A stretch of DNA of 35,442 nt, from positions 1-35,442 of the forward strand of contig JAUQWO010000032.1 of NCBI GenBank assembly GCA_030835135.1, given 5' to 3'. Origin of the DNA: Bacteroidota bacterium. GTDB taxonomy: Bacteria > Bacteroidota > Ignavibacteria > UBA10030 > UBA6906. Each line of letters starts with the position of its first letter. Within the stretch, counting starts at the first letter, position 1. This document shows positions 7,760 through 30,526 of this stretch, piece by piece. Under the pieces are notes generated by a model. That model did not search any database. It was not told where the DNA came from and was given only the letters and a program-made list of their open reading frames with translations. A program made the position numbers and the translations under genes.

Positions 7760-9928
7760 ATGATATCGCAAATTCGAATGGAGCAGGTAGCCAGCTTCAA
7801 GGAGGCCACAACCATTGACTCTGATAAGAGGGTAAACTTGATCTATGGTCTTAATGGCACCGGGAAGACGACGATCTCGGATTTTCTTTACGGTTCTACG
7901 AATCCTCGGTACAACCATTGCCGGATTGTGGCTACGACTCAATCCAAGATTCTAGTTTACAATCGAGCATTCATAAATGACCATTTCTTTGTCGCTGACG
8001 GGTTGAAAGGGATTTTCACTTTGTCCAAGGAGAACAAAAGGGCAGAGGAGAGAATACTCGAGGCACAGGCAACGATCCGAGCGATTATGGGCAATCGTGG
8101 CGATACAGAAGCGAAAAAGCAAGATCTCATGGCGGCCGTCGCCCAGCAAGCCAAAGACGCAGTTGACGAAGTGTGGAAGATCAAGCAAGACTTCTCTGGC
8201 GGCGATCGTGTACTTGAGTATTGTCTCGATGGTCTGAAAGGAGACAAAAGCAAACTGTATTCCCACGTTGCCTCTATCGAGAGGCCTAAGGCAGAACCAT
8301 CAAGATCCGCGTCGGATATCAAAGAGGATGTAGAGATACTCAGTGCTGACGGTGCCGCTGTCCAGAAACTTCTACCTGCTCTTGATCTCTCGGTGGCGGA
8401 AGTAGAGGAAGCGAAAGTGCTTGCAAAGGTGATTGAGGGCAGCAAGGACAACGATCTCGCGGCGCTAATCACTCGTCTCGAGAATGCGGATTGGGTCCGA
8501 GTAGGAATGTCCTTTCTCTCCGAAAGTAGCGATGACGGCAGTGAGAGTTGCCCGTTCTGTCAAGAGAAGACGATCACAACGGCCTTTAGAAAGAAACTCC
8601 GCGAATACTTTGACGAGGTCTACGAGGAGGATCTGCAAAGAATCCGAGAGCTTCAGAGACGCTACAACATGCTCATCGCAGAGGTCCCCAATGTGGAAGT
8701 CTATGCAAATCACCCACTCATCGGTCCGTCAAAGGCATTGATCGAGGAAAGGCACAGAAATCTTCTGACTGTATTGAAGTCAAACGCCAATTCGATCCAG
8801 TCCAAACTGGCCCAGCCCAGCATTCCGATAGCACTGGTTGAATCCAGTGCAGCTATGACGGGCCTCAACACACTGATCATGGCTGTGAATGAGGAGATAC
8901 AAGGGCACAACGACAGGCTTCAGAATAGGGACAATGCACTTGTCGTCCTAAAAAATGAGTTCTGGCAGATAATGCGCTGGAAGTATGACCCTGTCATATC
9001 ACGTCATGAAAGGGACAAGGCGGCCACAACCGAGAAGGTTCAAACTCTTGAAAGGGAAATTAAGCATTTCAACGATGCCCTAAAGTTCGAGAATGACAAG
9101 ATAGTATCTGCACAGAAGGACACAGTGAACACCCAAATGGCGGTCGACGCGATCAACGGTGCCCTCATCGACCTCGGTATGAACGAGTTTCGTATCGTTC
9201 GACTTACGGACACACACTACCGGATAGAACGTCCCAATCAGGCAGATGACGTGTTTCGGACGCTGAGTGAAGGGGAGAAGATGATCATCAGCTTCCTGTA
9301 TTTCTGTGAACTCTGCACTGGAAAATCTAGTCCCGACGAGGCTGACGTTGATCGTATTGCCGTGATTGATGACCCCATCTCGAGTCTATCTCATGTATTC
9401 GTCTTCAATGTGGGCCAGATGATCAAATCGCGATTCTTTTCTTCCAGGCAGATAACTCAAGTCTTCGTGTTGACTCACAGTCTGTACTTTTTCTACGAAT
9501 TGGCAGAGAAGGATTCGGTCAAACGCCGAGATAACCAAAGGCTTTTCAGACTGACGAAACCAAGTTCTGGAAGCAGCATTCAAGTAATGAAGTACGAGGA
9601 GGTGCGCAACGATTATGATGCATACTGGTCGATTATCAACGATCCAACGACCCACCAAGCGGTGATCGCGAACTGCATGCGCAACATTGTTGAGTATTTC
9701 TTTGGATTCATTCGGCACGAAGGCTTGAAGAATGTGTTTCAGAGCCCCGAGCTTCAAGCGCCTCGGTTCCAGACCTTCTACCGCTATATTAATCGGGAGT
9801 CACACTCAGACGGGCAAAACATCACGGACTTGAAGGAATTCGACTACGACATCTTCAGGGAGGGTCTACTGCTGGTTTTCCAAAAATCAGGCTATCCCGA
9901 ACACTTCGCCGCTATGTCGAAGCTTTAG
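7760..9928 (+). CDS. AAA_13-family ATPase, RloC/PrrC-like
   Basis: A 722-residue ABC-type ATPase. Walker A is GLNGTGKTT (30-38); a long coiled-coil middle contains a CPFC pair (264-267) that could form a zinc hook. The signature LSEGEK is at 502-507, Walker B AVIDDPISSL at 534-543 and LTHS at 571-574. RloC and PrrC, the anticodon nucleases of this family, use an Arg-X3-Glu...His triad; here R641, E645 and H682 (in RESHSD) have the same order with a slightly wider gap. In those enzymes the ATPase half controls tRNA cleavage during phage infection. Nuclease activity here is inferred. It is the last gene of the candidate defence cluster. Confidence 0.7.
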   Translation: MISQIRMEQVASFKEATTIDSDKRVNLIYGLNGTGKTTISDFLYGSTNPRYNHCRIVATTQSKILVYNRAFINDHFFVADGLKGIFTLSKENKRAEERILEAQATIRAIMGNRGDTEAKKQDLMAAVAQQAKDAVDEVWKIKQDFSGGDRVLEYCLDGLKGDKSKLYSHVASIERPKAEPSRSASDIKEDVEILSADGAAVQKLLPALDLSVAEVEEAKVLAKVIEGSKDNDLAALITRLENADWVRVGMSFLSESSDDGSESCPFCQEKTITTAFRKKLREYFDEVYEEDLQRIRELQRRYNMLIAEVPNVEVYANHPLIGPSKALIEERHRNLLTVLKSNANSIQSKLAQPSIPIALVESSAAMTGLNTLIMAVNEEIQGHNDRLQNRDNALVVLKNEFWQIMRWKYDPVISRHERDKAATTEKVQTLEREIKHFNDALKFENDKIVSAQKDTVNTQMAVDAINGALIDLGMNEFRIVRLTDTHYRIERPNQADDVFRTLSEGEKMIISFLYFCELCTGKSSPDEADVDRIAVIDDPISSLSHVFVFNVGQMIKSRFFSSRQITQVFVLTHSLYFFYELAEKDSVKRRDNQRLFRLTKPSSGSSIQVMKYEEVRNDYDAYWSIINDPTTHQAVIANCMRNIVEYFFGFIRHEGLKNVFQSPELQAPRFQTFYRYINRESHSDGQNITDLKEFDYDIFREGLLLVFQKSGYPEHFAAMSKL

Positions 9929-10107: not shown

Positions 10108-10569
10108 TCATTTGGCAACTCCAACAGAGTAGAACGTGGCTGTGCCATCCCCATACCCCATCCACTCCGCGACCGTTCTCCACGCACTCGATCCGGTGAG
10201 CAGATCATCGACCGAATCGATCCACTCAAACCTCTTTCCCTTCATACCCGACAGCACCATCCAGTGCTCTTGGTCGTCTATCAGGATGATGACAGGTGTG
10301 CCTCGCCTTAGATACCGCGTGATCAACTTCCGAGCTTTCGCCTCTCCGTGAACCATGTGGGGGAGGGGCTTGCACCCGCTCCTTCTGATGCCCCTCATGA
10401 TGGCATGTTCGTCAGTTCCCTCAACCATTGCTCTCAACCGCGACACTCCAGTCCTCCTGTGTGCTTCCCCGATCGAAATATGGATGCCAAGACAACCCAA
10501 AGCGTGAACGAGAGCGTGCTGGCCGCAGTGTCCTTCGATTGAGTACTGTCTGTGATACTGTCGTTTCAT
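10108..10569 (-). CDS. C39-like papain-fold cysteine protease
   Basis: A 153-residue protein with a compact papain-like triad: Cys15 in EGHCGQHAL, His102 in DQEHWMVLSG and Asp118 in EWIDSVDD. This is the pattern of peptidase C39 and related stand-alone cysteine peptidases, which cut after double-glycine leaders or other short peptides. There is no membrane segment or export signal. It lies downstream of the terminator of the minus-strand DNA-maintenance operon and so has separate transcription or is reached by read-through. Its substrate is unknown. Confidence 0.65.
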   Translation of the reverse strand: MKRQYHRQYSIEGHCGQHALVHALGCLGIHISIGEAHRRTGVSRLRAMVEGTDEHAIMRGIRRSGCKPLPHMVHGEAKARKLITRYLRRGTPVIILIDDQEHWMVLSGMKGKRFEWIDSVDDLLTGSSAWRTVAEWMGYGDGTATFYSVGVAK

Positions 10570-10590
10570 GATGTGCTCCTGCGACGTGAT

Positions 10591-10631
10591 AAGAAAAGAA
10601 AAAGCCCGACGGAAGACTCTCCGCCGGGCTT
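10591..10631 (-). terminator. Rho-independent terminator
   Basis: On the minus strand AAGCCCGGCGG pairs with CCGTCGGGCTT (one mismatch) around an 8-base loop and is followed by a run rich in T. It closes the minus-strand operon 10651-15430 ahead of the C39-like gene. Confidence 0.8.
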
Positions 10632-10650
10632 GTGAGAAAGTGGAATGCGC

Positions 10651-11142
10651 TCAGCTGCGCGCACGCTGAATGAAGATGGTGAGCGCGATCGACCTGATCG
10701 AATCGACATCCCACTGCACAGTGTTCACGGCCTTCGTCGCTTCGATGGCATCCCTGAGCGACTGTTCCATGATGTCCCGGAACCCATCATCCGGGACTTC
10801 GGTCGGCATAACACCAGGCTGAGAAGCCGGAACTACCGCTTTCGACACGACCTCGAAGTCCATTCGGGCTGTGACCTTCTTGCCGTTCTGAACCGCTGTC
10901 TTGGAAATGCGGAATTCATCACCGGCCTTGAGTCCTGCTTCCACGATCTTCTGATGCAGGTCGCCGGACGTGAAGAATGCCTTCTCGATGCCTTCATGGG
11001 CCACACTGTACAGATAGTACGCCCCAAAGGAGTTTTCCCCTGAATAGGGCTTGTCTTTGGTGAGCTTGAGCGTTGCCGACTCATTAAGAGCCAGTTCAAG
11101 CTTCGGTTTGTTCTGAGTCTGTGTCCCGTTCCCGTTCGCCAT
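10651..11142 (-). CDS. Unknown protein of the DNA-maintenance module
   Basis: A 163-residue soluble protein. The N-terminal tail (ANGNGTQTQNKPKLEL) is polar. A beta-rich domain (about 18-100) contains FGAYYLYSVAHEGIEKAFFTSG and GDEFRISKTAVQNGKK, a pattern reminiscent of OB-like single-strand binding folds, followed by a Pro-rich linker and a helical C-terminus. I cannot assign it to a family. It overlaps the Gam-like gene by 47 bases and is the last gene before the terminator, so it is probably made with the DNA-repair proteins upstream. Confidence 0.6.
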   Translation of the reverse strand: MANGNGTQTQNKPKLELALNESATLKLTKDKPYSGENSFGAYYLYSVAHEGIEKAFFTSGDLHQKIVEAGLKAGDEFRISKTAVQNGKKVTARMDFEVVSKAVVPASQPGVMPTEVPDDGFRDIMEQSLRDAIEATKAVNTVQWDVDSIRSIALTIFIQRARS

Positions 11143-11662
11143 CTGTCTCTCCTTTGATTGAGTATGAGAACTTGGTTTCCGCAGGGAAATACTCCACCCC
11201 TGGCGGTATGTCTCCAGTTGCCTTGATGCGGTTCAAGATCGCTTGGTTGTCCGGTGTAATCGATTCGGGCACTGACCGGACGAGACCGAGCTTTCCAGCG
11301 ACTTTCAAGAACGCTTCCATTTGAACCACACTCACTTTGTCTCTGCCTTTTCTCATTTTGAGGGTTCCGCGCGGTAGCCGAATAGTCTTCTCGCCGCTGG
11401 ACCGTGCAAACGCTTCGAGATTGTGCAGGAGCCATGAGCGTTGTTTGTCTAGGCGACTGAGTTCGTTCGAGCGGTAATCTTCAAGTAGCCGGACCTCCTT
11501 GTCGACCAGGTCATTCGCGTCAGACATCCGATCCTCGAGAACCGCCACCGCAGCGAGGAGCTGATCGGCTCGTAATCGATCCATCTCGATCTTGGTTTCT
11601 TGGTCAGCCAGTTCGGATTCCCGGAGGAGTTCTGCTATGAAGTCGATTCTTTCGGTCATCAT
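11096..11662 (-). CDS. Mu Gam-like DNA-end-binding protein
   Basis: A 188-residue protein with a helical coiled N-terminal half (about 1-85), then KTIRLPRGTLKMRKGRDKV and a C-terminal globular part ending FSYSIKGET. This matches the host-nuclease-inhibitor Gam family of phage Mu and related elements, homologous to Ku, which binds double-strand ends and shields them from exonucleases. It is encoded next to an ATP-dependent ligase and a RadC-like protein. Start at ATG 11662 after GGAGG; the start overlaps the stop of the small membrane peptide upstream. Confidence 0.75.
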   Translation of the reverse strand: MMTERIDFIAELLRESELADQETKIEMDRLRADQLLAAVAVLEDRMSDANDLVDKEVRLLEDYRSNELSRLDKQRSWLLHNLEAFARSSGEKTIRLPRGTLKMRKGRDKVSVVQMEAFLKVAGKLGLVRSVPESITPDNQAILNRIKATGDIPPGVEYFPAETKFSYSIKGETDGERERDTDSEQTEA

Positions 11663-11748
11663 TTCCTCCTTGGTCCAAAGATCGAGCCCAGCACGCCGAG
11701 TACAGCTTCTGCTACCATGAGAACGATCGTGATTGTTTTCCTTGTCAT
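11659..11748 (-). CDS. Small single-helix membrane peptide
   Basis: A 29-residue frame beginning MTRKTITIVLMVAEAVLGVL and ending GSIFGPRRK: one hydrophobic helix with basic ends. It starts at ATG 11748 after TAGGAG, contains GGAGG near its end for the next gene and its stop overlaps the ATG of the Gam-like gene, the arrangement of a translated, coupled small gene. Function unknown; the size and form fit a phage- or plasmid-type membrane peptide. Confidence 0.5.
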   Translation of the reverse strand: MTRKTITIVLMVAEAVLGVLGSIFGPRRK

Positions 11749-11769
11749 ATGGATGTGTCTCCTAAGTGA

Positions 11770-12225
11770 TTAGATCATGCCGCGTTCTGCGAGGGAGGTA
11801 TAGCTGTTCTCCCCGATGATGATATGGTCGTGGACTGGGATTCCTATAGTCTTCCCGGATTCCACGAGCTGTTTGGTGATCTCGAGGTCCTCGGCACTCG
11901 GTTCAGGGTTGCCGCTGGGATGGTTGTGTGCAACGATGATTGATGCAGCCGTTGCGACTATCGCACCACGAAACACCTCTCTCGGGTGAACAAGGCTGCA
12001 GTTGAGTGTGCCCTCCGTGACCACCTCAAAACCAATCACCTTGTTGCTCGCATTCAGCCAAATTACCAAGAACCGTTCCCTGACCTGACCCGTGAAGATG
12101 TCGGCGTAGGACCGAAACACATCCTCCGGCGAGCGGAGAATGACCGATCGCTGAGCTTTCAGACCGGGAAGGTCTTCGGATGATTCCTTGAACCGCCAGA
12201 CAACCGTCCGGAGGTGGTATTTCAT
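11770..12225 (-). CDS. RadC-like JAB-domain protein
   Basis: A 151-residue protein with the JAB/MPN metal-binding motif AHNHPSGNPEPSAED: H100, H102 and D113 are the expected zinc ligands. It corresponds to the C-terminal domain of RadC without the N-terminal helix-hairpin-helix region. Such short forms are frequent on plasmids, phages and genomic islands, where their biochemical role is still unclear despite the old DNA-repair name. It lies 26 bases after the ligase gene in the same operon. Confidence 0.85.
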   Translation of the reverse strand: MKYHLRTVVWRFKESSEDLPGLKAQRSVILRSPEDVFRSYADIFTGQVRERFLVIWLNASNKVIGFEVVTEGTLNCSLVHPREVFRGAIVATAASIIVAHNHPSGNPEPSAEDLEITKQLVESGKTIGIPVHDHIIIGENSYTSLAERGMI

Positions 12226-12251
12226 TTGCTATTCCTCAATTGTGAGTGGTT

Positions 12252-13439
12252 CTATTGTTCGCCTTGATACCAGATACAGTCCTGTGGATGCTTATCCGCC
12301 CTCATCGAGACGAACCGAGGATGCCGTATCGCACCGGACTTGAGCCGTTCCATGCCTTGGATCAGAACGACATTGCCGACGAACGCTTCGGGATTGCGAC
12401 CCATCTGCTTCCGGATTCTGTCGGTCATCCCGGATGCCTGGCCGAGTTCGGTCAGGTTTCCATCGACATATTGACCGAACACAACTGCTCCGATTGTTTC
12501 ATTGTACTTGCCTTTCCCTCCCGTAAATCCCATCACAACGCAGTCGAACGTCGATGACTTCTTGGCTTTGTACCAGTTGTTCGCCGGTCTTCCGCCTTGA
12601 ACGTATATCTCGTCCAGACGCTTGAGCATGATGCCCTCACCTCCACTGGCGAGCACCGATTCATATAGGCGTCGCTTATCGGCACTGGTTCTTGCCCACG
12701 GAAGGAAATGGATGAACTCCGAGTGTAATTGTCGCTGGAGGGTCACAAGGTGACCCAGCCGTTCTTCCAGCGTCAAAACACCCAGATCCCGGTCACCAAG
12801 TTTGAGGATGTCGAACACGAACAGCTGAACTGTGGTGCTATCGCCGTTCCCATTCTTCCGGTGTACCGTACCCGATAGAGTTGCGGAATCGATACCAGGA
12901 GCAAGGATCTCGCAGTCCAGAATGGTGCCGGAAAGGTCTGGAAATGTGAGCCGTGAGAGATGGGGAAGGGCAGAGGTTTTCTCGAGCGGTCTACTTGGAT
13001 CCTCGACTCCCGCTGAGCGAGAGAATATGCGAAGTCCGGTTCGGGTGATGTGGACGATAGCCCTCATTCCGTCCAACTTCTCTTGGGCGATATAGCGGGG
13101 ATCATCCAGAAGTGCCTGCAAATGAGCTTCATCCTTCACTCCCTGAGCACTCATCGGCCAGATCGTGGGGAGATTGTTCTTTTTGTTTTGAGCCGGGGCC
13201 GGAGAGATCGCTCCACCGGACCCAACGATGATGTACCCCCGCTTTTGCTTTTCGAGCTGTTTCTTCTGCATCTCCGCCAGTGCTTCCTGCTCGTTGTCGC
13301 CGTCGTAGATCAGCGCTTTCTTGGGAGCCTGACCGATGGCACCGTAGAGACCTTCCACAGTAAACCGTTCGCTGCCCCGGGAGAGATGCAGCTCATAGTA
13401 CTTGTTGTGCCCTCCGCTCGTGCATTCAAGCCGAATCAT
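12252..13439 (-). CDS. ATP-dependent DNA ligase with N-terminal WGR-like domain
   Basis: A 395-residue protein. Residues 1-75 resemble a WGR domain (YYELHLSRGSERFTVEGLYG). The nucleotidyltransferase domain has motif I EKLDGMR with the adenylated Lys at 121, motif III near FSRSAG (139-144), LDCEIL (E177), motif IV SGGEGIMLK (E268) and motif V WYKAKK (291, 293). An OB domain follows (about 295-380). Start at ATG 13439 after AAAGGAGGAGG. Ligases of this size serve phages and repair pathways; next to a Gam/Ku-like gene it could complete an end-joining unit, which is inference. Confidence 0.85.
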   Translation of the reverse strand: MIRLECTSGGHNKYYELHLSRGSERFTVEGLYGAIGQAPKKALIYDGDNEQEALAEMQKKQLEKQKRGYIIVGSGGAISPAPAQNKKNNLPTIWPMSAQGVKDEAHLQALLDDPRYIAQEKLDGMRAIVHITRTGLRIFSRSAGVEDPSRPLEKTSALPHLSRLTFPDLSGTILDCEILAPGIDSATLSGTVHRKNGNGDSTTVQLFVFDILKLGDRDLGVLTLEERLGHLVTLQRQLHSEFIHFLPWARTSADKRRLYESVLASGGEGIMLKRLDEIYVQGGRPANNWYKAKKSSTFDCVVMGFTGGKGKYNETIGAVVFGQYVDGNLTELGQASGMTDRIRKQMGRNPEAFVGNVVLIQGMERLKSGAIRHPRFVSMRADKHPQDCIWYQGEQ

Positions 13440-13460
13440 GCCTCCTCCTTTGAAATGGAA

Positions 13461-13489
13461 AGGCCGGCCCCATCTCTGGAAGCCGGCCT
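13461..13489 (-). promoter_or_regulatory. Hairpin between the DUF932 and ligase genes
   Basis: Perfect 8-bp stem AGGCCGGC/GCCGGCCT with a 13-base loop, just ahead of the ligase ribosome-binding site. On the minus strand it is followed by only three T, so it is a weak terminator or attenuator or an RNA processing/stability element that lowers ligase expression relative to DUF932. Confidence 0.5.
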
Positions 13490-13511
13490 CAGGTGAATGT
13501 ATAGTGAAGGA

Positions 13512-14477
13512 TCAGTTGTTGAGCCATGTACGAGCCAGATCGAATGCGCGGAGCTTGAGCGATTCGCCCGAGCCGAACCAGACCGACTTCAGTCGCTTCT
13601 CCGGGATGGTCGAATTCTGCACGTGATCGGTGTATTCGGTTACGGCATTGTATGCGCCCCACAGGCTTCCACGTGCCATATCTGACCCCGCGCCGGTCTC
13701 GTTCAGTTCGAGGATCTTCGACCGGATATTCTCGGTCCGGGTGTTGAATGAAGCGTCCTCATTGTCCGGGACCAACTCTTTCACGAACTGGATCAGCTGT
13801 CGTTCGGTGATTCGCTTGGCATTCATCCTGTTAAAGATGAGGTCCAGCTCCTGGTACAGAGAGTTCGTCAAGCCGAGAAGCTTGTGAGCCTGGGCAAGCC
13901 GATCCACAGCACTGGGAGTATGCCGGATGCGAACCTCCTGCTCTGCTCCATCCAATGCGGCTGAGAGGGTGTTGTTGCAGACGACCCGGATGGGAGTAAG
14001 CTTTGCACGGACCATCGACTTCCCGTCATGGGAATTGGTCAGAAGCAGGTATTTCTTGACCTCATCGTTCTTCCCGATCTTGATATATCCGGGGAGTTTT
14101 GCCAAAACCCATATTGTTTCTCCCTGACCAAGAACCCCTGCTGTTTCGAAGATTGCCTCTCCAGAGCCTACTAGGCTGTCGAAGAATGCGAACGCTTCCT
14201 CATTCTGCAGGACGGTGTACCGATCTCCGACCAGACCCAGCACCGATTGAGTATCCCGACGCACAGTCGCAAATGACCTCGGCACCTCGACCAGCGTGCG
14301 GCCATTCGGTTTACAGAACAGTGGCTTCTTGTCGACCTGATAATCAAGCCCTGCCGCCTGCATTGCTTCAGCTGAGGTCGCCAGCTGTGGAAGACGAACA
14401 CCGAGACGATGCCATGGGCTTTCTCCCACGTACATCATGGAGGTCTTCCCATTTGTGACGTTAAGGTTGTGTGCCAT
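13512..14477 (-). CDS. DUF932 phage/plasmid-like protein (TIGR03299 type)
   Basis: A 321-residue protein starting at ATG 14477 (MAHNLNVTNGKTSMMYVGES). The frame remains open further upstream, but that extension only mirrors the clamp gene. The central region contains ATVRRDTQSVLGLVGDRYTV, ETIWVLAKLPGYI, YLLLTNSHDGKS and IRVVCNNTLSAAL, the landmarks of the DUF932/TIGR03299 family found on phages, plasmids and integrative elements. Its biochemical function is not established. It follows the clamp gene by two bases. Confidence 0.85.
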   Translation of the reverse strand: MAHNLNVTNGKTSMMYVGESPWHRLGVRLPQLATSAEAMQAAGLDYQVDKKPLFCKPNGRTLVEVPRSFATVRRDTQSVLGLVGDRYTVLQNEEAFAFFDSLVGSGEAIFETAGVLGQGETIWVLAKLPGYIKIGKNDEVKKYLLLTNSHDGKSMVRAKLTPIRVVCNNTLSAALDGAEQEVRIRHTPSAVDRLAQAHKLLGLTNSLYQELDLIFNRMNAKRITERQLIQFVKELVPDNEDASFNTRTENIRSKILELNETGAGSDMARGSLWGAYNAVTEYTDHVQNSTIPEKRLKSVWFGSGESLKLRAFDLARTWLNN

Positions 14478-14479
14478 AG

Positions 14480-15001
14480 CTACTGTACCTTTCTGTGTTT
14501 GAGTTGAATGGGCATGATCAAACCGACTGTCCCGGGATCGCCCTTGAGAGGTTTCACTAGGACTGCTTCGGTTGGTTGTCCGCACATCAGCACGAGTTCC
14601 TCTGAACCCAATGAATCCGCAAGGTTCTTCAGGTATGCGGCATTGATACCGATCTTGTAGTACTTTCCCTGATGAGCTTTCCGAAGCAAGTTGAATACTC
14701 TCGGAGGATTGTGTTTCTCTGGGCGCTGCATCGTCGTACCGTCCGGAAGAATCTGCGCACCGTTGAGACCGATCCTGATGGAATCGAGCCCTTTGCCAGA
14801 CACCTTTCGAGCGTGTTTCAGTGCATCCGGTGACATCCATCCTGGTTCGTCTTCACCGTCTGTCGTGACCGGAACGATGGCGAGAATCCTACCGTCTGTG
14901 GCGAGTGCGTGACGTTTGCTCACGAACACGTTTTGCAGGCTTTCTCGGTTACTGTCGGTGGATACCGCCCTTTCGATCTTGTAGCGTTTGTCGATTTGCA
15001 C
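14480..15001 (-). CDS. Short DnaN-like sliding-clamp homologue
   Basis: A 173-residue protein starting at GTG 15001 after GAGAGGCAG. Two stretches recall the beta clamp: VSKRHALATDGRILAIVPV near the N-terminus and, at the C-terminus, LVLMCGQPTEAVLVKPLKG followed by GLIMPIQL, which has the form of the clamp's final strand region. A normal DnaN has three domains and about 370 residues; this has about one and a half. It may assemble with more subunits or act as a partner or competitor of the host clamp. The similarity is to motifs I recognise, so homology needs profile confirmation. Confidence 0.55.
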   Translation of the reverse strand: MQIDKRYKIERAVSTDSNRESLQNVFVSKRHALATDGRILAIVPVTTDGEDEPGWMSPDALKHARKVSGKGLDSIRIGLNGAQILPDGTTMQRPEKHNPPRVFNLLRKAHQGKYYKIGINAAYLKNLADSLGSEELVLMCGQPTEAVLVKPLKGDPGTVGLIMPIQLKHRKVQ

Positions 15002-19634: not shown

Positions 19635-21410
19635 TTGACTTTCGACAGTGTCCTGAAACTTGTTGCGATAGCGCTCGCATTGTACGCCCTCCTTCCACAG
19701 TCAAAGCGCCTGGAATTTAAACTCAGGTTGTCTTGGTACCATGTGCTTTCCATGCTGGCAATCGGCGTTGTTGTGCACATTCTCCTGTTCTACTCTTCGC
19801 TTGTCTCTTGCGAAGTCGTCCCGCAATTCCCTTCCGACCAATTCAAAATGAAGCCGCAGGAGGTCGCCTATCTTGTGGTCATTTCGTCATCTCTCCTTTT
19901 CTGGGTCTGGTTTCACTTTAGTCCTATTCCCCGTAGGAAAGTCAAGGACTTGTCGCTGTTGATACAGCAATTGCTCGCAGAGAGCAGATATGGAGAGGCC
20001 GCCCTTCTTCTTGACGAGAATCTGCACAGGATTCACCGAATCTCACTCCTTGATTTTCGGATGGATAGACTTCGCAGTCGTCTTGTGAGAGATGTGCGGT
20101 TCCCTCCGTTGGAGAAGCCAGAAATAGTCCGTTTGCTGGAGGCAGGTGGAAATGATGATTCGCTGGAGAGTGTGGTTAGGTCTCGAAAAGGGTTGAGTAG
20201 ATTGATCCGTGTCCCACTGCACAGACTTGAGCAGTTTGTGGGACAACTGCTGCCTTCACACGAATTGTCGAAGAGAGCCGCAGAAGATGTCTCTCGTGTC
20301 ACGCTGCTTAATCAGGAGTTATTGGACTACATATCGAAGTCGAAGCCGTATTTTCTACTCAAGGTGCTTGAAACAGATCCAATTGAAAAAGAGAGGTTTG
20401 TAAATGGAGTGATGGCCCGCCTTCTCCGCTCACCGAGGAGCGTTTTGTCGTTCGAATTAGAACAAAGCCAAGACATAAGCACAGAACATCGGTACGCGAT
20501 AAGAGAGTCGAATCGTTTGGTGTATTATTTCTTCTCAGATGTCACTAGGACGGAGAAACTCGGGGTGTGGAAGCCTGTAGGAGATGAGATGCTTAGGCAC
20601 CTCAAACGGCCAGGCCGTGGGGGGGCAGCAGACGATGAATACAACCATGCATTGGGAGATTTTAGCGATATGGGTCGCTGGGAATCTCCCTTGTTCGTGG
20701 GTATCCGTTTCTTCGACATAATGGTCTCTGAGGCAATCTATCAGAAAGTCGAATGGCATATGTGGTTGATGTATTTCCAGTTTGTTCTGAAGGGCATATG
20801 CCAGAACTACGCACCTCACCCAGATAGTAAGGACTCATATTGGGAAACCCCCACGAAATACAGCTATCTGATATATGAGATTCTCGACGTGCTGCAACAG
20901 TGGATTCTCTGTGTGCGACACGTTCCGAAAGACCAAAAGAACATGAGCATTTCATCGGATAGACTTGACCATGAAAACAGTAGCATAGTGAAAACAAGCA
21001 TTATGGTTCTCGGCGAGGGCTTGATGACCATATTCGAAACACAGTCAATTCCGAAAGACTTCTTCGCAAAGCGAGTTCAAGGAGTGTGCCATACGTATTT
21101 TGAATTGGTCAGAAGCGGTCGCATCTCACCCTTCGGGGAACTGCTTCTGAAATCAATTATGCGGGGTGGGTACCAACACAATAGCCCATCGGAAGGTTAC
21201 CAAGCAGAGCTCATAAAGGCATTCATCGACAACGATAACGAGCCGCAGAGGCACCAGGACGTAGAGGTAGGTTTGGCTTTTCTCGTGAATGAATTCGTCT
21301 CTGGGTTCGGTGAGGTGTGCCTGAAGAATCGACTTCGATGTGAATGTACTCCCAAAAGTATCACGCTCATTTCCGAAAGTAGGGGGCGCAGGTACAGCGT
21401 TACCCGCTGA
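19635..21410 (+). CDS. Large unknown membrane protein
   Basis: A 591-residue protein with a probable TTG start at 19635. Three membrane helices fall in the first 95 residues (about 6-21, 35-58 and 77-95); the remaining 490 residues are soluble, Leu/Arg/Glu-rich and probably helical. I recognise no enzymatic motif, no Walker sequence and no nuclease signature. The combination of an N-terminal membrane anchor and a large cytoplasmic region, next to a potassium channel and a CARF-regulated operon, is compatible with a membrane effector or sensor, but there is no direct evidence for either. Confidence 0.7.
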   Translation: MTFDSVLKLVAIALALYALLPQSKRLEFKLRLSWYHVLSMLAIGVVVHILLFYSSLVSCEVVPQFPSDQFKMKPQEVAYLVVISSSLLFWVWFHFSPIPRRKVKDLSLLIQQLLAESRYGEAALLLDENLHRIHRISLLDFRMDRLRSRLVRDVRFPPLEKPEIVRLLEAGGNDDSLESVVRSRKGLSRLIRVPLHRLEQFVGQLLPSHELSKRAAEDVSRVTLLNQELLDYISKSKPYFLLKVLETDPIEKERFVNGVMARLLRSPRSVLSFELEQSQDISTEHRYAIRESNRLVYYFFSDVTRTEKLGVWKPVGDEMLRHLKRPGRGGAADDEYNHALGDFSDMGRWESPLFVGIRFFDIMVSEAIYQKVEWHMWLMYFQFVLKGICQNYAPHPDSKDSYWETPTKYSYLIYEILDVLQQWILCVRHVPKDQKNMSISSDRLDHENSSIVKTSIMVLGEGLMTIFETQSIPKDFFAKRVQGVCHTYFELVRSGRISPFGELLLKSIMRGGYQHNSPSEGYQAELIKAFIDNDNEPQRHQDVEVGLAFLVNEFVSGFGEVCLKNRLRCECTPKSITLISESRGRRYSVTR

Positions 21411-21641
21411 AACCGCTCGTGCCGTTGCTTAGGCATTACCAAAAGTAGGCACTGTGTGAGAAGGCGCACGCTGAATTGGGGCTCTCGGTCCAGGAGCATT
21501 CTTCCCGTGAGTGAATGAACCAAGAGGTCGAGTCATCGCAAGAGTTGCAGCTTCTACGTAATGTTGGTACCGAGAATATCGGCTCTACGGTTCTGTATCA
21601 CTGGGCTCCCCCAGAAGCGCCCGAATATAGGTCTCTGGAAT

Positions 21642-22490
21642 ATGTCTCTGCCTCAGATCGTGATAATCGGCCACGTGGGATACGATGTAGTACTCATCGA
21701 TGGCTTTGAACGCTCGCGGCATATTGCGGGCGCAGCATTCTATTCAGCCGTCGGAGCTGCCTCGTTAATATCGCGGGTTGGGGTAGTCAGTCGGTTGCCG
21801 CGGAATGAAATCACAATCATCGAGGCCCTGAAAACACTCAAGGTGGATCTCGGTGGCATCACGCTCGTGTCCGACGGCAAAACTCCAGAGTTCATTCTCC
21901 GTTACACAGGCTCCGACTTCGAAGATATGGACGCAACGAGGGGAGTGACAATATCTCTCGGCTGTGCTGAGTTCCTAGCTCCGGAGGACATTCCGCCATC
22001 CTTCCTGGATTGTTCGTTCGTCCACATTGCAACTGCGAATCCGACCAACCAAATTCAATGGATCAAATACCTTCGGGCCAAGTCTCGGAGTATTCAAACC
22101 ATTTCGATGGACACAGACCAGTTGTTTCTAAGGAGTGATCCCTCCCTCGTATTGAAAGCGTTCATGCTATCGGACATTGCCTTCATTAACCACCGCGAGG
22201 AGAAAGTGTTGAATCTCCTTAGAGCCCTGAAGAAGCACGTAATTGTCAAGCGAGGAGGGGAGGGAGCAGAGCTGTGGTTTGGGCGCGAACTTATCACCAG
22301 GGTGCCTGCGAAGGGGGTGAGAGTGGTTGACACGACAGGTTCAGGAGATATCCTCGCAGGGGCATTCATGGCTCAAATCGCAGGGGGGAGCGACTATGTG
22401 CAAGCGCTAGCCACCGCGGTCAATATTGCATCGGAATCCGTCCGAGAGTACGGGGTGAACCATTTGTTCAAGAATTCGATCAGTCAATAG
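21642..22490 (+). CDS. PfkB/ribokinase-family kinase
   Basis: A 282-residue protein from ATG 21642. It has the family's Rossmann-like core, VKRGGEGAEL (about 202-211) and the catalytic anion-hole motif VVDTTGSGDILAGAF (about 228-242) with the base Asp236. The N-terminal Gly-Gly motif is replaced by HIAGAAFYSAVGAA (27-40). The family phosphorylates sugars and nucleosides at a hydroxyl with ATP; the substrate cannot be read from the sequence. It is the first gene of the operon with the radical SAM and CARF-sigma-54 genes (23-base gap), so a nucleoside-type substrate is an attractive inference. Confidence 0.85.
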   Translation: MSLPQIVIIGHVGYDVVLIDGFERSRHIAGAAFYSAVGAASLISRVGVVSRLPRNEITIIEALKTLKVDLGGITLVSDGKTPEFILRYTGSDFEDMDATRGVTISLGCAEFLAPEDIPPSFLDCSFVHIATANPTNQIQWIKYLRAKSRSIQTISMDTDQLFLRSDPSLVLKAFMLSDIAFINHREEKVLNLLRALKKHVIVKRGGEGAELWFGRELITRVPAKGVRVVDTTGSGDILAGAFMAQIAGGSDYVQALATAVNIASESVREYGVNHLFKNSISQ

Positions 22491-22512
22491 AAATGGGGAG
22501 CGAAAAGCGATC

Positions 22513-23547
22513 ATGAAAAGCCTGAACCCCGACCAGATGGCCATCCGCATCTCCATAACTGGGCGATGCCAGATGCATTGCTACTACTGTACTCGAGAAA
22601 ATCACTCGAGCAATCAACTCGAATACTCGCAGTTGGCCGGCATAATAGAAGCCTTGGCTCAAGGCGGTTTTAGGAATGTCCATTGGACTGGGGGTGAACC
22701 CCTTTGCCGACCGGACCTCGAGATGATCGTCGCGCACGCTCGAAGGGCGGGCTTTTCGTACCAGAAACTCACGACTAATGGAGCTGGGCTCGCGAAGCGT
22801 GCAGACTCTCTTTGCCTCGCCGGGATCAATCGGGTAAATGTCAGCCTTGATTCTTTAGACCGAGATCAATTCAACGGTCTGACCGGCTCAGCGCTATACG
22901 ATCATGTTCTTGCCGGGATTGAGGAGGCTCGACGACGATTTCGGTGCGTCAAACTCAATGTTTGTGTAACCCGACAGAACGTAAGTGAGTTGGGACGGTT
23001 CATCTCTTTTGCGGAACAATTAGGGGATGGGATCGTAGTCAAGTTTCTTGAATTGGTGCCCTGTCAGAATCACTTCGAACACGATCGTGAGAGTTTTTAC
23101 CAAGAGTTCGTCTCGATCCAAGAAATCATGTCGACGCTATACGGCACTTTCGGGCAGATAGTTCCGAGTTCGTCCCCTGAGCATTCACGGCAGAAATGCC
23201 AATATTTCAAGATAGTCACGAACAACGTCGTTTTCGGTCTGAACCCCAATGAATCCATCGAATACGCATGTCAACGAGAACAGTGTGCCGATTTTCGTAT
23301 GAGTCCTACGGGATATCTCTCAGACTGCTCGGTCAACCTGACAAATGCAATCTTCCTTCCGGATTTGAATTTTGACGATCAGAAGACGGCCATCCAAGAG
23401 CTTATACACAAGAAACGGACGCGCACGACGGAAGAGTGGGAAGTCTATCGGCATAAGCAACAACACTACTCGTTCTGGAGATTTGGGGAGATGGTGCCTG
23501 AGCTTATTCCGTTCACGAAGAGCGCTTGCCAAGAAAACGGCATGTAG
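22513..23547 (+). CDS. MoaA-like radical SAM enzyme
   Basis: A 344-residue protein. The SAM-binding cluster motif is C19-X3-C23-X2-C26 (CQMHCYYC), with GGEP at 60-63 and SLDS at 111-114. A second cysteine set, C253-X4-C258-X13-C272 (ACQREQC...LSDC), lies where MoaA has C-X2-C-X13-C for its auxiliary cluster. MoaA rearranges GTP in molybdopterin synthesis. Here there is no other moa gene, the auxiliary spacing differs and the MoaA C-terminal tail is not evident, so a different purine-like substrate is likely. It is encoded between the PfkB kinase and the CARF-sigma-54 activator. Confidence 0.85.
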   Translation: MKSLNPDQMAIRISITGRCQMHCYYCTRENHSSNQLEYSQLAGIIEALAQGGFRNVHWTGGEPLCRPDLEMIVAHARRAGFSYQKLTTNGAGLAKRADSLCLAGINRVNVSLDSLDRDQFNGLTGSALYDHVLAGIEEARRRFRCVKLNVCVTRQNVSELGRFISFAEQLGDGIVVKFLELVPCQNHFEHDRESFYQEFVSIQEIMSTLYGTFGQIVPSSSPEHSRQKCQYFKIVTNNVVFGLNPNESIEYACQREQCADFRMSPTGYLSDCSVNLTNAIFLPDLNFDDQKTAIQELIHKKRTRTTEEWEVYRHKQQHYSFWRFGEMVPELIPFTKSACQENGM

Positions 23548-23573
23548 TGAGCCATGAACTGGATCAATCAACC

Positions 23574-25334
23574 ATGAGCCGGAATATCCTTCTTGCGGTC
23601 GTTGGCACAAAGTCCTGGGTCGTATCCCAGGCATTGTATTGTTTCCGCGTTGAACAGAACATCCCCATTACTGAAATCATCATAATAACCACAAAAGTGG
23701 GCGAGGATGTTCTGAGGAAGGGCAATGTGGAAGTAGGGCCGGCCAATCTATTAGGGAAGGGAGGCATCCTTCAGAGGTTCTGCCACGAGTATGGGATTGC
23801 ACCAATTGAACCCAAGATCGTGTTGATGAAGGATCAAAAAGGGGTTGAACTCAAGGATACAAGAACCATCGACGAGTGCCAATCGGGAGCGTTTTCGATC
23901 TTGGATACGATCCGCAACTGCGGATTATCGGACGATGACAATGTCTATTGCATTTTCGCCGGTGGGAGAAGACTGATGGTAAGTTATCTCATGTCAGCGC
24001 TTACAATAGCCGGTAGAGCTAACGATCGGCTCTACTATGTGTTGATCACACCAGAGGAAGCAAGCCACGTTCGGGACTTCTATTACAAACCGAAGGATCC
24101 TGCCACCATCGCCTTGCCCGGAGGCATCAAGAGCACAGCAGACGTGTCCATGCAAATGATAGAGATTCCATTCCCGAGGCTTGGGGAAAAGTACGCTTCA
24201 GTGATTAGGGGGGATAAGAGCTATCGTGCGGTAGTGCTCCATATTCAAGATTTCATTTCCTCTGAGCCCAAACCTGCGGTCTCCTCCGATAGTAGTGCTC
24301 GAAAGCACCAGGAAATCATCGGTGAGGACCCTAAGTGGAAGGAGGCGCTGAAAGAAATTGATCGATTTGCTAAGGCAAAGATATCCCCGATTTTGATCCA
24401 TGGAGAGACTGGCACTGGGAAGGAATTGTGTGCACAGTACTATCACAGTTGCTTGTCCAACTATCTTCAGAAAGAGATGCCATTCGTCGCGATTGATATG
24501 AACGGAATTCCCCAGGAGATGAGTGAGTCGGAACTTTTCGGACACGAGAAAGGGGGATTTACAGGCGCAACGCACACCAGAGTAGGACTACTTAAGTCTG
24601 CAAATGGCGGGGTCGCTTTTTTGGATGAGCTGGGCAAGGCTTCAGCTAGCCTGCAAACCAAGTTGCTCCGGGTACTGGAGTATAAGGAGATGCGTCCTGT
24701 CGGGAGCGATAGACTGATGAAGATCGATGTCGCATTCGTATTTGCGATGAAAGAAGACATTGATCAACTCCTGGATGATAATTTGATGACTGAGGACTTC
24801 TTCTATAGGGTCTCGATGGCTCGAGTGCTGGTTCCTCCCTTGCGCGAACGACTATCGGACATCCCCTTGTTGGCTAGACATTTCATTGAACGGAGTTGTC
24901 GAACCCAGAATAAGGAGACGATCATCCTAAGTGATCAGTTGCTTGACCTGCTCTTGCATCACACATGGCCAGGCAATACGCGAGTATTGAAGCAACGTCT
25001 TGAATGGCTCGTTACTCAGAGCAATGGTAAGAAAGTGTCGGACGAACTGTTGGTGAAGTTGAAAACCCGACTGGAGGAAGATCGGGTAAGGATGATGCGA
25101 CGAGAACGAATGAGAATCAACGGGGGGACGAATGACGCTTTGCTCTCTACTCCAGGAGCTAATGACGGTGGGTCAACTTTCAAAGAGCGACAGAGTGCCA
25201 TTGAAAGAGATGTGCTCGAAAGGAAATACCATGAGTGCGGGGAGAATGCCGCGCGGACAGCCCGGGCTCTGGGAATGAAACCTTCTACTCTTAAAGACAA
25301 ACTCAAGGGACACGGTATAATCCATCAGCGATAG
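23574..25334 (+). CDS. CARF (Cas_NE0113-like) - sigma-54 activator fusion
   Basis: A 586-residue protein; ATG 23574 is chosen because the N-terminal strand (NILLAVVGTKSWVV) starts there. Residues 1-180 match the Cas_NE0113 CARF pattern: AVVGTKSWVVSQAL (8-21) and FAGGRRLMVSYLMSALTIAG (128-147) followed by DRLYYVLITP. Residues 250-480 are a sigma-54 AAA+ domain: Walker A GETGTGKE (277-284), sigma-contact loop GGFTGA (327-332; usually GAFTGA), Walker B VAFLDE (347-352) and Arg fingers near FYRVSMARVLVPPLRER. A Fis-type HTH follows (about 555-585). RtcR has the same logic with a different CARF domain. The expected ligand is a cyclic oligonucleotide or RNA end; this is inference. Confidence 0.85.
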   Translation: MSRNILLAVVGTKSWVVSQALYCFRVEQNIPITEIIIITTKVGEDVLRKGNVEVGPANLLGKGGILQRFCHEYGIAPIEPKIVLMKDQKGVELKDTRTIDECQSGAFSILDTIRNCGLSDDDNVYCIFAGGRRLMVSYLMSALTIAGRANDRLYYVLITPEEASHVRDFYYKPKDPATIALPGGIKSTADVSMQMIEIPFPRLGEKYASVIRGDKSYRAVVLHIQDFISSEPKPAVSSDSSARKHQEIIGEDPKWKEALKEIDRFAKAKISPILIHGETGTGKELCAQYYHSCLSNYLQKEMPFVAIDMNGIPQEMSESELFGHEKGGFTGATHTRVGLLKSANGGVAFLDELGKASASLQTKLLRVLEYKEMRPVGSDRLMKIDVAFVFAMKEDIDQLLDDNLMTEDFFYRVSMARVLVPPLRERLSDIPLLARHFIERSCRTQNKETIILSDQLLDLLLHHTWPGNTRVLKQRLEWLVTQSNGKKVSDELLVKLKTRLEEDRVRMMRRERMRINGGTNDALLSTPGANDGGSTFKERQSAIERDVLERKYHECGENAARTARALGMKPSTLKDKLKGHGIIHQR

Positions 25335-25350
25335 CCGAAGGCACGGCGGA

Positions 25351-25370
25351 ATCGCCGGATTTCCGGCGAT
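25351..25370 (+). promoter_or_regulatory. Small perfect hairpin downstream of the activator
   Basis: ATCGCCGG-ATTT-CCGGCGAT, just after the CARF-sigma-54 stop and before the terminator. It may protect the 3' end of the operon transcript. Confidence 0.4.
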
Positions 25371-25394
25371 GAAACCAACGTTTGATTCCTTCAA

Positions 25395-25425
25395 CCCCTC
25401 AGATCGAAAGATTTGAGGGGTTTTT
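25395..25425 (+). terminator. Rho-independent terminator of the kinase-radical SAM-activator operon
   Basis: CCCCTCAGAT pairs with ATTTGAGGGG around CGAAAG, then TTTTT. It isolates the operon from the following gene. Confidence 0.9.
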
Positions 25426-25429
25426 CATT

Positions 25430-25446
25430 TTGGCAAGGTTCCTGCC
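25430..25446 (+). promoter_or_regulatory. Sigma-54 (-24/-12) promoter
   Basis: TTGGCAAGGTTCCTGCC: the invariant GG (25432-25433) and GC (25444-25445) are separated by exactly 10 bases, and the -24 element TTGGCA is consensus; the -12 element CTGC differs from TTGC at one base. It lies five bases after the terminator and about 65 bases before the ATG of 25511, next to the only sigma-54 activator gene in the window. GG-N10-GC alone is common by chance, so the extended match and the context carry the call. Confidence 0.55.
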
Positions 25447-25510: not shown

Positions 25511-25912
25511 ATGTCCGGCAAGCAAAAAATATCGAGAAGGAGTACAACGCGGCAAGGGCAAAACACACCGTTCGCCTTCTCTGCCAGGCTTGTCGGTGGT
25601 CGATTGATCGAGCAGATGCCGGTGGATGAATCAAAGGTCGATCAGATCGAGCTGAACGGGCGGGTCTTTGCAGTAGAGGGGACGGTCAGGGAGGTGGTGA
25701 GGATTGCGCGAGTCAAGTATAGCGAGGAACATTATAAAGCGGTGATCGCACTCATTAACCAGGGCTACCAGAAGAACGCCGCCGTTGAGCAGGTCGCAGT
25801 CAAGTACGGCTTCGCATCTGTGGATGGGTTCTACAAGCAGTGCGATAAGTACTTGGACACGAAAGATGGAAGCGTAGTTCCATTCGGTGGAACCGTACTT
25901 CCTTCACCTTGA
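25511..25912 (+). CDS. Unknown protein, possible output of the CARF-sigma-54 activator
   Basis: A 133-residue soluble protein with a basic, disordered N-terminus (SGKQKISRRSTTRQGQ), a beta-rich middle (about 22-60) and a helical part with YSEEHYKAVIALINQGYQKN then FASVDGFYKQCDKYL, which looks HTH-like. No membrane segment. The ribosome-binding site is weak. It sits behind the sigma-54-type promoter. I do not recognise a family. Confidence 0.55.
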   Translation: MSGKQKISRRSTTRQGQNTPFAFSARLVGGRLIEQMPVDESKVDQIELNGRVFAVEGTVREVVRIARVKYSEEHYKAVIALINQGYQKNAAVEQVAVKYGFASVDGFYKQCDKYLDTKDGSVVPFGGTVLPSP

Positions 25913-28539: not shown

Positions 28540-28739
28540 CAGCATCGATGGACCAAAGTGGCACCATCAAAACGAAGAGACTTATGCCAGAGTACACCTT
28601 CCTGACCAGGGAAGGTTCGACATTTACCGGACCGGAGCAGGATGATCTTGTCCGACTCGTCGCTGCCATGATCCTACGGGATTTGAGGTATAAGAAGAAA
28701 ATGACGATAATACCCAACCAGGAGGACGAACATGGATGA
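28536..28739 (+). CDS. Small unknown protein upstream of the recombinase
   Basis: A 67-residue protein with MPEYTFLTREGSTFTGPEQD then LVRLVAAMILRDLRYKKK. Its start overlaps the previous stop and its end overlaps the recombinase ATG by eight bases. A Lys-rich C-terminal segment and small size would fit a recombination directionality factor, but no motif proves it. Confidence 0.5.
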   Translation: MTASMDQSGTIKTKRLMPEYTFLTREGSTFTGPEQDDLVRLVAAMILRDLRYKKKMTIIPNQEDEHG

Positions 28740-30486
28740 GAGACTTGCCGCAGTGGGATATGTTCGGTGTTCCACCGATCAACAGGAAGACAGCCCGGAT
28801 CAGCAGAAGCGTGCCATAACTGAGTTTGCAGCTCGGCAGGGATACGACATCGTCGAGTGGTACGTGGATTTTGGCAAGTCCGGCACCACGTTTGACCAGC
28901 GTCCCGAGTTCGAACGCTTGCGAATTGATGTAGAGAGACGTCCCTTGTTCCACACAGTGATCTGCTACGATGAATCCCGATGGGGACGTGCGATCGATGC
29001 GGAAGAGAACACGTTCTGGCGAGTTCATTTCCGTCGACACGGAGTTGACGTGATCCTGGTGAAGACATCCATAGACCCAGGTCATGAATTCGCCCCGATG
29101 ATGAAGGCGTTTGAAGGGGTACAGGCCTCACAGTTTAGCAAAAAACTCTCCGAGCTCACCTATCGTGGGGCTAGCAGCAATGGAGTCTTTTCGAGTGGTG
29201 GCACGGCTCCGTACGGCTATAGGAGGGTTGCTGTGAGTATCAAGACCGGATTACACAGGGATCTCGCGCACGGAGAGTGGTGTGTCAAGAAACAGGAAAA
29301 GGTGATCTGGGTAATCGGTGACGAGCGGGAGGTCGCGACAGTTCGGTTCATCTTCACTCAGAGAGCACGTGGTACAGCATTCATTGTGATTGCCAGCGAG
29401 TTGAATGACCGTGGGGTGCCGTGCGCACAACGTGGCAGGTGGAGAAACCTTGACAGGAAGTGGAGTGTAGGTACGATAAAATCAATTGTCGAGAACCCGG
29501 CATATTACGGTGCTCGAGTCTACAACCGCTTCTCCAGCAGTAAAATCCGTGCCCAGCTGGAACGCTGGGACACCAAGAGCGGTGTCGCCCATCCACAATG
29601 GCGTATGGATGCTGATAAGTGGATCATTGTCGAGAGTGCCCATGAGTCTATTGTCGGCAAGGAGTTGTGGCAGGAGGCGAATGCCAGGTACGCGAAGCGT
29701 ACGAACTATCGACCCAAGGCGTTCGTTCCCTATCTCCTGTCAGGAGTTGTGTTCTGTGCCCGTTGCGGGTTTGCTTTCCAGGGACAATCGACAAAGAACC
29801 GAGGGAAGGAGTATTTCCGGTATATATGTGGAGGTTATCATGCCAAGCGAGTGTGTGAGTGGGCAGCAGTAGGGCGGGATATCCTCGAATCATTTGCTAT
29901 TGATGCGGTTACGGATGTATTTACGAATGATAGATTCATCGAAGGAGTTCGGGTAGAGTTGAATCGTCTTATGGAGATCGAGCCGGGTGTCGCCGAAACA
30001 CAACGGATAGCCTCCACCCACCGGTTGGGAGAGATCGAAACTGCCCTCGGGAACATCACGCGAGCTATTGAGGGCGGTGCTCCGGTTGAAATGTTTACCG
30101 GCCGGATCAGCGAGTTGTTGGCGGAAAAAGAGAAGGTCCAACAACAGCGTCAGCAGGCAACCATCGTCACAGCAGCAGGATCATCCGTTGATAAGATGTC
30201 ATTCGCCGTTTCGGATTTCTGTGCGTCTTTTCGGCAGGCGTTCGATCGCGCGCCTATTCAGGAGCGAAAGGAGCTGCTGCGGAGAACAATTTGGCGGATC
30301 AAAGTTGATGGTGGCGCCCGGACAGCAGAGTGTTATGTCCGTCGCTTTCCAGTGGTTGGAGGGCTCCAGGACCAGATGATTCGGGACCTGGAAAAACAGG
30401 CAACGGCAACCGATTATCGATTGCCGTTGTGCAATGAGTGGGTGCCCGGAACAGGACTTGAACCTGCACGACCTCGCGGCCACTAG
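28732..30486 (+). CDS. Large serine recombinase (integrase)
   Basis: A 584-residue protein. The resolvase-type catalytic domain (1-145) has VGYVRCSTDQQ with the nucleophile Ser14, and the 'recombinase' domain follows (about 155-290). A zinc ribbon (FCARCGFAF ... YICGGYHAKRVC, about 342-385) and a coiled coil complete a large serine integrase. Start at ATG 28732 after AGGAGG. The last residues, WVPGTGLEPARPRGH, are encoded by the antisense strand of tRNA-Leu, so the natural C-terminus is probably altered by integration. Serine integrases insert at short att sites without a long target duplication. Confidence 0.9.
   Translation: MDERLAAVGYVRCSTDQQEDSPDQQKRAITEFAARQGYDIVEWYVDFGKSGTTFDQRPEFERLRIDVERRPLFHTVICYDESRWGRAIDAEENTFWRVHFRRHGVDVILVKTSIDPGHEFAPMMKAFEGVQASQFSKKLSELTYRGASSNGVFSSGGTAPYGYRRVAVSIKTGLHRDLAHGEWCVKKQEKVIWVIGDEREVATVRFIFTQRARGTAFIVIASELNDRGVPCAQRGRWRNLDRKWSVGTIKSIVENPAYYGARVYNRFSSSKIRAQLERWDTKSGVAHPQWRMDADKWIIVESAHESIVGKELWQEANARYAKRTNYRPKAFVPYLLSGVVFCARCGFAFQGQSTKNRGKEYFRYICGGYHAKRVCEWAAVGRDILESFAIDAVTDVFTNDRFIEGVRVELNRLMEIEPGVAETQRIASTHRLGEIETALGNITRAIEGGAPVEMFTGRISELLAEKEKVQQQRQQATIVTAAGSSVDKMSFAVSDFCASFRQAFDRAPIQERKELLRRTIWRIKVDGGARTAECYVRRFPVVGGLQDQMIRDLEKQATATDYRLPLCNEWVPGTGLEPARPRGH
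30392..30429 (-). terminator. Terminator of tRNA-Leu
   Basis: Perfect 9-bp stem CAACGGCAA/TTGCCGTTG with an 11-base loop; on the minus strand it is followed by CCTGTTTTT. It lies 14 bases beyond the tRNA 3' end, inside the recombinase reading frame. Confidence 0.75.
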
Positions 30487-30526
30487 CTCCTGAAGCTAGC
30501 GCGTCTGCCAATTTCGCCATCCGGGC
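30443..30526 (-). tRNA. tRNA-Leu(CAG)
   Basis: On the minus strand GCCCGGA (5') pairs with TCCGGGC (3'). The anticodon stem is CTAGC/GCTAG around loop TTCAGGA, giving anticodon CAG. The variable arm is long (class II, as in tRNA-Leu) and the T-loop is GTTCAAGTC. The 84-base gene has discriminator A and no encoded CCA. It flanks the recombinase and is the probable integration locus of the island. Confidence 0.95.

Follow-up and report, generated by a model that had tools for sequence, protein, structure and literature searches.

What is known of type III CRISPR signaling comes mostly from CARF proteins that degrade nucleic acids or alter the pools of nucleotides. Cad1, a CARF-adenosine deaminase, is an effector enzyme within a CARF system acting on nucleotides, and the NE0113/CARF5 proteins of type III loci are classed in NCBIfam as Csm6/Csx1-type ring nucleases. 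A CARF protein devoted to transcription is RtcR, the regulator of rtcBA RNA repair, a sigma54 activator that binds tRNA/RNA fragments ending in 2',3'-cyclic phosphate (PMC7790460) and that oligoadenylates do not activate (PMC9650030). Here we analyze a 35,442-nucleotide stretch of a Bacteroidota bacterium of the class Ignavibacteria (contig JAUQWO010000032.1, assembly GCA_030835135.1), called the window throughout, in which a CARF-sigma54 activator closes an operon that also encodes a PfkB-family kinase and a MoaA-like radical S-adenosylmethionine (SAM) enzyme. We find good support for a CARF-sigma54 switch of CRISPR origin accompanied by nucleotide-type enzymes. Beyond that, we tentatively favor, with confidence that stops somewhat short of even, a transcription switch that is gated by a ligand and descends from an activator of type III CRISPR signaling; its output would run forward from position 25511, and its companion enzymes would make or process the ligand.

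The operon and the CRISPR origin of its activator

The kinase gene (21642-22490, + strand; 282 aa, with a DTTGSGD anion-hole/base motif), the radical SAM gene (22513-23547, +; 344 aa, with CX3CX2C, GGEP and three C-terminal cysteines) and the activator gene (23574-25334, +; 586 aa) lie on one strand, separated by 22 nt and 26 nt, and end in one intrinsic terminator, a 13-pair stem plus T run (25393-25422, +). Three long open reading frames, each matching a domain strongly, greatly exceed what chance would give, and the operon is real; the 23574 start of the activator gene is backed by alignment to its Kryptonia homologs. A 591-aa protein is encoded 231 nt upstream of the kinase (19635-21410, +); its sole match is phrog_13820 (160 bits, function not assigned), and it could be co-transcribed with the operon.

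The activator consists of a CARF domain (aa 1-235), an AAA+ domain (aa ~247-493) and a Fis-type helix-turn-helix (HTH; aa ~544-582), the last of which scores weakly. Residues 5-205 match Cas_NE0113 (PF09623) at 77.8 bits and TIGR02584 at 96.3 bits (cut-off 80.65), and the CARF scores 137 bits on the PADLOC CARF5 model, which places the domain in the NE0113/CARF5 family. Residues 248-417 match Sigma54_activat (PF00158) at 167 bits and, with the motifs GETGTGKE (Walker A), LDE, PPLRER and GN-R, identify a sigma54 activator; RpoN is present in the same genome (187 bits). An AlphaFold2 model of the CARF domain built from 15 sequences (pLDDT 87.9, pTM 0.85) finds as its top matches in the PDB the CARF of Cad1, the ring nucleases Sis0455 and Sso2081, Card1 and Can2, so that family models, fold and the tree described below together confirm the CARF identity. 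Cad1, the best of these matches, is an effector enzyme, whereas the window protein is a transcription activator. With RtcR the window protein shares the CARF-AAA+-HTH logic of a sigma54 activator; unlike RtcR, it has a CARF of NE0113 type, and neither rtcA nor rtcB was recognized among the genes of the window. The family models rule out an RtcR identity: the RtcR N-terminal domain PF06956 matches neither the activator nor anything in its genome, and the RtcR model NF038308 reaches 218 bits against a cut-off of 650, over residues 238-574 only, which cover the AAA+ domain and the HTH.

Among 294 genomes of the class, the closest CARF matches came from five genomes of a single genus, Candidatus Kryptonia, four of which encode an intact 572-aa CARF-sigma54 protein and the fifth a masked and split one. 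A CARF profile scan of 84,980 species returned 14 loci. Two are Kryptonia loci already counted among the five; the other 12 encode NE0113/CARF5 proteins, 308-460 aa long (a contig end truncates one), that, like the window CARF, score over the TIGR02584 cut-off but lack a sigma54 domain, and most of them stand beside Cas10-like genes. Sigma54-fused relatives were found only in Kryptonia. These fusions are 36-37% identical to the window protein over the full length, including linker, AAA+ and HTH, and in a tree of 41 CARF domains they join it at 100/100, the window CARF forming the longest end branch (2.23 changes per site). As alignment and tree indicate, the window CARF and the Kryptonia fusion share a common origin.

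In Kryptonia (LDXX01000007, CALJEK010000035 and relatives) the CARF-sigma54 gene is the last of a type III-A csm operon, following cas10, the csm genes (Csm5) and a ring-nuclease homolog, and 3' of it lie a DUF4258-like gene and type I-B genes including cas3 and cas4. Cas10/Csm1 of these loci scores 692 bits, with GGDD intact in the three copies read. The Kryptonia I-B/III-A fusion has been described (PMC4737851), and a term search for a sigma factor in the main text of that paper came back empty. One Kryptonia genome has a second CARF match at the far end of the csm operon, in the region of a second, 419-aa protein. The window copy differs in being preceded by the kinase and radical SAM genes rather than by cas10-csm and the ring-nuclease homolog, and in its changed pocket motifs, which the Kryptonia copies keep.

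Much of a preliminary description made from the letters of the window holds up against these results. It had proposed a same-direction, three-gene operon with gaps of 22-26 bases and a shared terminator, and coordinates, spacing and stem agree; it had seen a CARF sensor joined to a sigma-54 activator, which the PF09623/TIGR02584 and PF00158 matches bear out; it had named in advance the folding of the N-terminal domain as a CARF, and the best structural matches of the model are CARFs. Its link to CRISPR signaling is strengthened by relatives that close III-A csm operons, and its observation that the window contains no cas gene stands.

A candidate promoter behind the activator

A candidate sigma54 promoter, TTGGCAAGGTTCCTGCC (25430-25446, +), begins 96 nt past the activator stop. 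It is the top-scoring sigma54 site of the 35-kb window on both strands, by a weight matrix drawn up from the general sigma54 consensus, in which scores are relative; dinucleotide shuffles of the intergenic stretch equaled its score in 3 of 5000 and 0 of 2000 cases, in runs with differing backgrounds. Between the activator stop and the terminator lies a perfect 9-bp inverted repeat, ATCGCCGGA-TT-TCCGGCGAT (25351-25370), a candidate upstream activating site of a kind present in 10 of 5000 shuffles. The gene behind the candidate promoter (25511-25912, +) encodes 133 aa without a family match.

The same layout recurs in Kryptonia, where all five loci have a strong sigma54 promoter 88, 87, 89, 88 and 116 nt past the activator stop, with repeats such as CGATATATCGGCGCCGAAATATCGG between stop and promoter, followed in four of the five by a conserved hydrophobic peptide of 46-50 aa with the core LPxPIILILxGxxML, ahead of the DUF4258-like gene. 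We found no published description of this promoter layout; judged from these sequences, the Kryptonia activator and its promoter are likely to give a transcriptional output driven by cyclic oligoadenylate (cOA). The window site had been spotted by eye before the Kryptonia loci were inspected, and the Kryptonia positions are an independent confirmation of its place, though not of its function. A loose sigma54 consensus with 3 mismatches occurs at chance over the window (26 found against 24.8 expected), and our promoter claim is based on the score rank together with the position seen in Kryptonia.

Because the window keeps the Kryptonia layout, a palindrome and then the best sigma54 site behind the activator, the target of the activator is probably the downstream gene or genes from 25511 rather than the two enzyme genes. 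The stretch upstream of the kinase (21411-21641) yielded no sigma54 site. The wiring implied by the preliminary description, with the two enzyme genes as the induced output, finds no support in this comparison, and the activator is probably wired forward rather than onto its own operon.

The general pathway that we propose would begin with a nucleotide-like ligand bound by the CARF domain. Ligand binding would license the AAA+ ring, seated at the palindrome that directly follows the activator gene, to open RpoN-RNA polymerase at the promoter at 25430, and the gene or genes from 25511 would then be expressed. The kinase and the MoaA-like radical SAM enzyme, expressed together with the sensor, would most likely make or process the ligand. 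As to what is switched on, the 133-aa protein has homologs in two other members of its order, one of them within an apparent integrated element with an integrase-like gene and small genes, and its gene may be an island gene. Mobilization of the island described below is a possible output, since the likely genes from 25511 to a serine recombinase all run in the same direction; the gaps of 118-660 nt between them speak for separate transcription units.

The two enzymes and the ligand

The kinase belongs to the PfkB family of sugar/nucleoside kinases (PF00294, 65.5 bits, cut-off 25.8), and DTTGSGD at residue 230 corresponds to the catalytic DTxGxGD. Its top named family model is ribose-1-phosphate kinase, at a score far under the cut-off, and a query of the 294 genomes returned only PfkB proteins of about 30% identity and no close relative.

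The radical SAM enzyme (PF04055, 78.7 bits) resembles MoaA in its core, in GGEP, in a C-terminal three-cysteine cluster and in its top structural match. It falls outside the MoaA family model, however (TIGR02666, 170.7 bits, cut-off 284), and aligned with MoaA proteins it ends in ENGM, without the C-terminal GG; CADFR stands where MoaA has CNRxR, and within the MoaA set Arg17/266/268 (triple mutant, PDB 2fb2) the counterparts R12 and R262 are kept, whereas that of Arg266 is Asp. The C-terminal cysteines, C253-x4-C258-x13-C272 as against C-x2-C-x13-C in MoaA, are likely to hold an auxiliary 4Fe-4S cluster. A search of the genome at E 1e-25 found no second strong MoaA match. We dropped a molybdenum-cofactor reading on account of the missing GG tail and the TIGR02666 score; the enzyme is probably MoaA-like without being a GTP 3',8-cyclase. 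Its structure model is weak (pLDDT 62) and served for the fold class only; the nearest solved structures are MoaA (with GTP; the best match), AbmM and BlsE, and viperin structures also align. The substrates of AbmM and BlsE are nucleosides. Given these three nearest structures, a nucleoside or nucleotide substrate is likely, and the family matches and structures together favor the nucleoside-type enzyme pair suggested in the preliminary description. Viral contigs hold one family of phage radical SAM proteins (start GFYTLSDxRAK) whose tail resembles that of the window enzyme (R..EW..H).

The alignment with viperins raises the possibility that the two enzymes are effectors. Prokaryotic viperins make modified nucleotides that block phage replication, and some are encoded with kinases; in the same manner, the CARF domain might sense an infection signal and the operon make a modified nucleotide that blocks the phage. 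The window enzyme likewise adjoins a co-transcribed kinase in a defense-like setting, a defense-type ATPase being encoded in the same island, and it scores 49.7 bits against the viperin model NF038283 and 60.6 bits against the PADLOC pVip model with kinases. The first of these scores, however, is far under the viperin cut-off of 180, the enzyme is nearer to MoaA in sequence, and its kinase is of the PfkB family. In addition, the candidate sigma54 site lies behind the operon and none was found upstream of the kinase, and the trio is not recurrent. We regard an effector role as possible but unlikely.

Our preferred reading, that the enzymes serve a ligand-gated switch, draws on the position of the genes and on the CARF pocket. 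The kinase and radical SAM genes stand where Kryptonia has Cas10 and the ring-nuclease homolog, and for this reason we propose, by analogy and from one locus, that they may make or clear the CARF ligand. In an alignment of 15 sequences, the window CARF is changed relative to its 14 relatives at 8 of 15 near-invariant positions (P14S, T18S, E19Q, L24F, S127I, K133R, T134L and H155Y). Most of these substitutions fall in the strand-1 PxxxTE and strand-4 SxAGGRKT motifs, conserved in the aligned NE0113/CARF5 members and not kept in the window CARF; the basic residue after strand 4 stays basic (Arg). The strand-1 and strand-4 motifs form the conserved CARF pocket according to Makarova et al. 2014, and the basic residue after strand 4 is connected with nucleotide ligands and mostly lacking in RtcR (PMC4012209). 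The Cas10 palm domain PF22335 had no match in the window's own genome, an 88-contig assembly searched with this one domain model. These changes suggest a changed ligand, and we infer that it may be a nucleotide other than a standard cOA; RtcR sets a precedent for a CARF-sigma54 protein that oligoadenylates do not activate (PMC9650030). A more specific version, in which the kinase and the radical SAM enzyme synthesize a non-cOA nucleotide second messenger, read by an activator recruited out of type III CRISPR and now responding to another ligand, would be a signaling pathway of novel chemistry; we consider it unlikely, if worth stating.

A different ligand would be implied if the activator followed the logic of RtcR and sensed tRNA/RNA fragments with a 2',3'-cyclic phosphate, the two enzymes acting elsewhere. 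RtcR itself binds such fragments (PMC7790460) and does not respond to oligoadenylates (PMC9650030), and the island could supply them. The AAA_13 protein encoded at 7760-9928 (+) matches PADLOC PDC-S06 at 804 bits, has a PrrC hit, and carries a zinc-hook-like CPFC. Toward the C-terminus it has R-x3-E-x36-H with a Ser just before it, which is the R...E...H motif reported for RloC (PMC2610378). It is a probable RloC-like anticodon nuclease (tRNase), and since RloC leaves tRNA ends with a cyclic phosphate (PMC2610378), a resident source of an RtcR-type ligand is possible. The window CARF, however, is of NE0113 and not RtcR type, it keeps the basic residue that RtcR mostly lacks (PMC4012209), rtcA and rtcB were not seen in the window, and some 12 kb separate the tRNase gene from the operon; we think this explanation rather improbable. 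Less probable still is that the CARF domain remains a plain cOA sensor, activating the downstream genes in response to a type III system on another element: the nearest relatives stand beside Cas10 and the fold matches CARFs that bind cA4/cA6, but no Cas10 was detected in the genome and 8 of the 15 near-invariant CARF positions are changed.

The trio itself was not found again. Searches with the radical SAM enzyme covered 395 genomes of its phylum and 395 of a second one, the full set of 98 from the order, and 8 more, and turned up distant MoaA-type hits only (two of the scans appear to share one sample); plasmids, phages and viral contigs held nothing close, none of the 14 CARF loci has a kinase or radical SAM gene, and we found no described CARF-kinase-radical SAM system in the literature. 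That the three genes are chance neighbors, island cargo without joint function behind which the promoter is spurious, would fit a trio seen once, mixed cargo, and enzyme genes without close relatives, but is very unlikely given the tight same-strand spacing, the single terminator, and a promoter near the Kryptonia position that is the best in 35 kb.

Several observations nonetheless weigh against the ligand-gated switch that we favor. A single locus shows the two enzymes in this setting, where operon structure alone ties them to the sensor, and with the trio absent from the genomes searched that tie has no comparative support. The GAFTGA loop of the activator reads GGFTGA. The window sigma54 site deviates from the consensus. 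The palindrome, which does not share the sequence of the Kryptonia repeats, might simply form a hairpin. The 133-aa protein is not homologous to the Kryptonia peptide and may be island housekeeping, and no frame for a small hydrophobic peptide was seen when we looked for one behind the window's promoter. The lack of a Cas10 match, finally, comes from a single domain model searched against 88 contigs. The interpretation in the preliminary description is thus supported in part: there is good support for a CARF-sigma54 switch of CRISPR origin with nucleotide-type enzymes, the implied induction of the enzyme genes finds none, and the recurrence that it had set as its own test was not seen in the genomes searched.

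The mobile island and the meaning of the switch

The operon lies in a mobile island that carries a defense-type gene, which accords with the defense islands in which the preliminary description proposed to look for the trio. The island ends at its integration site, a tRNA-Leu(CAG) gene (30441-30526, -) overlapped by the serine recombinase gene (28732-30486, +); for the left end, the window showed no tRNA repeat that would mark it. A related genome has a different serine recombinase (36% identity) at the same tRNA-Leu(CAG), which with two different recombinases in two related genomes is an integration hotspot. Plasmid/phage-like genes occupy 10108-15001 (-), among them, as judged by eye, one gene like RadC and one like a DNA ligase, with matches to phrog_1221 and a DNA polymerase processivity factor, suggesting that the island once replicated or was a plasmid.

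Paired with a conserved promoter of its own, a CARF-sigma54 activator would give type III signaling an arm that acts through transcription. In Kryptonia, its gene lies exactly between the III-A and I-B modules, and this position offers a testable reason for the fusion described there (PMC4737851). In the window, the same switch is detached from CRISPR, with altered pocket motifs and two nucleotide-type enzymes beside it, and it provides a direct means of asking whether there are CARF ligands beyond oligoadenylates and RNA fragments.

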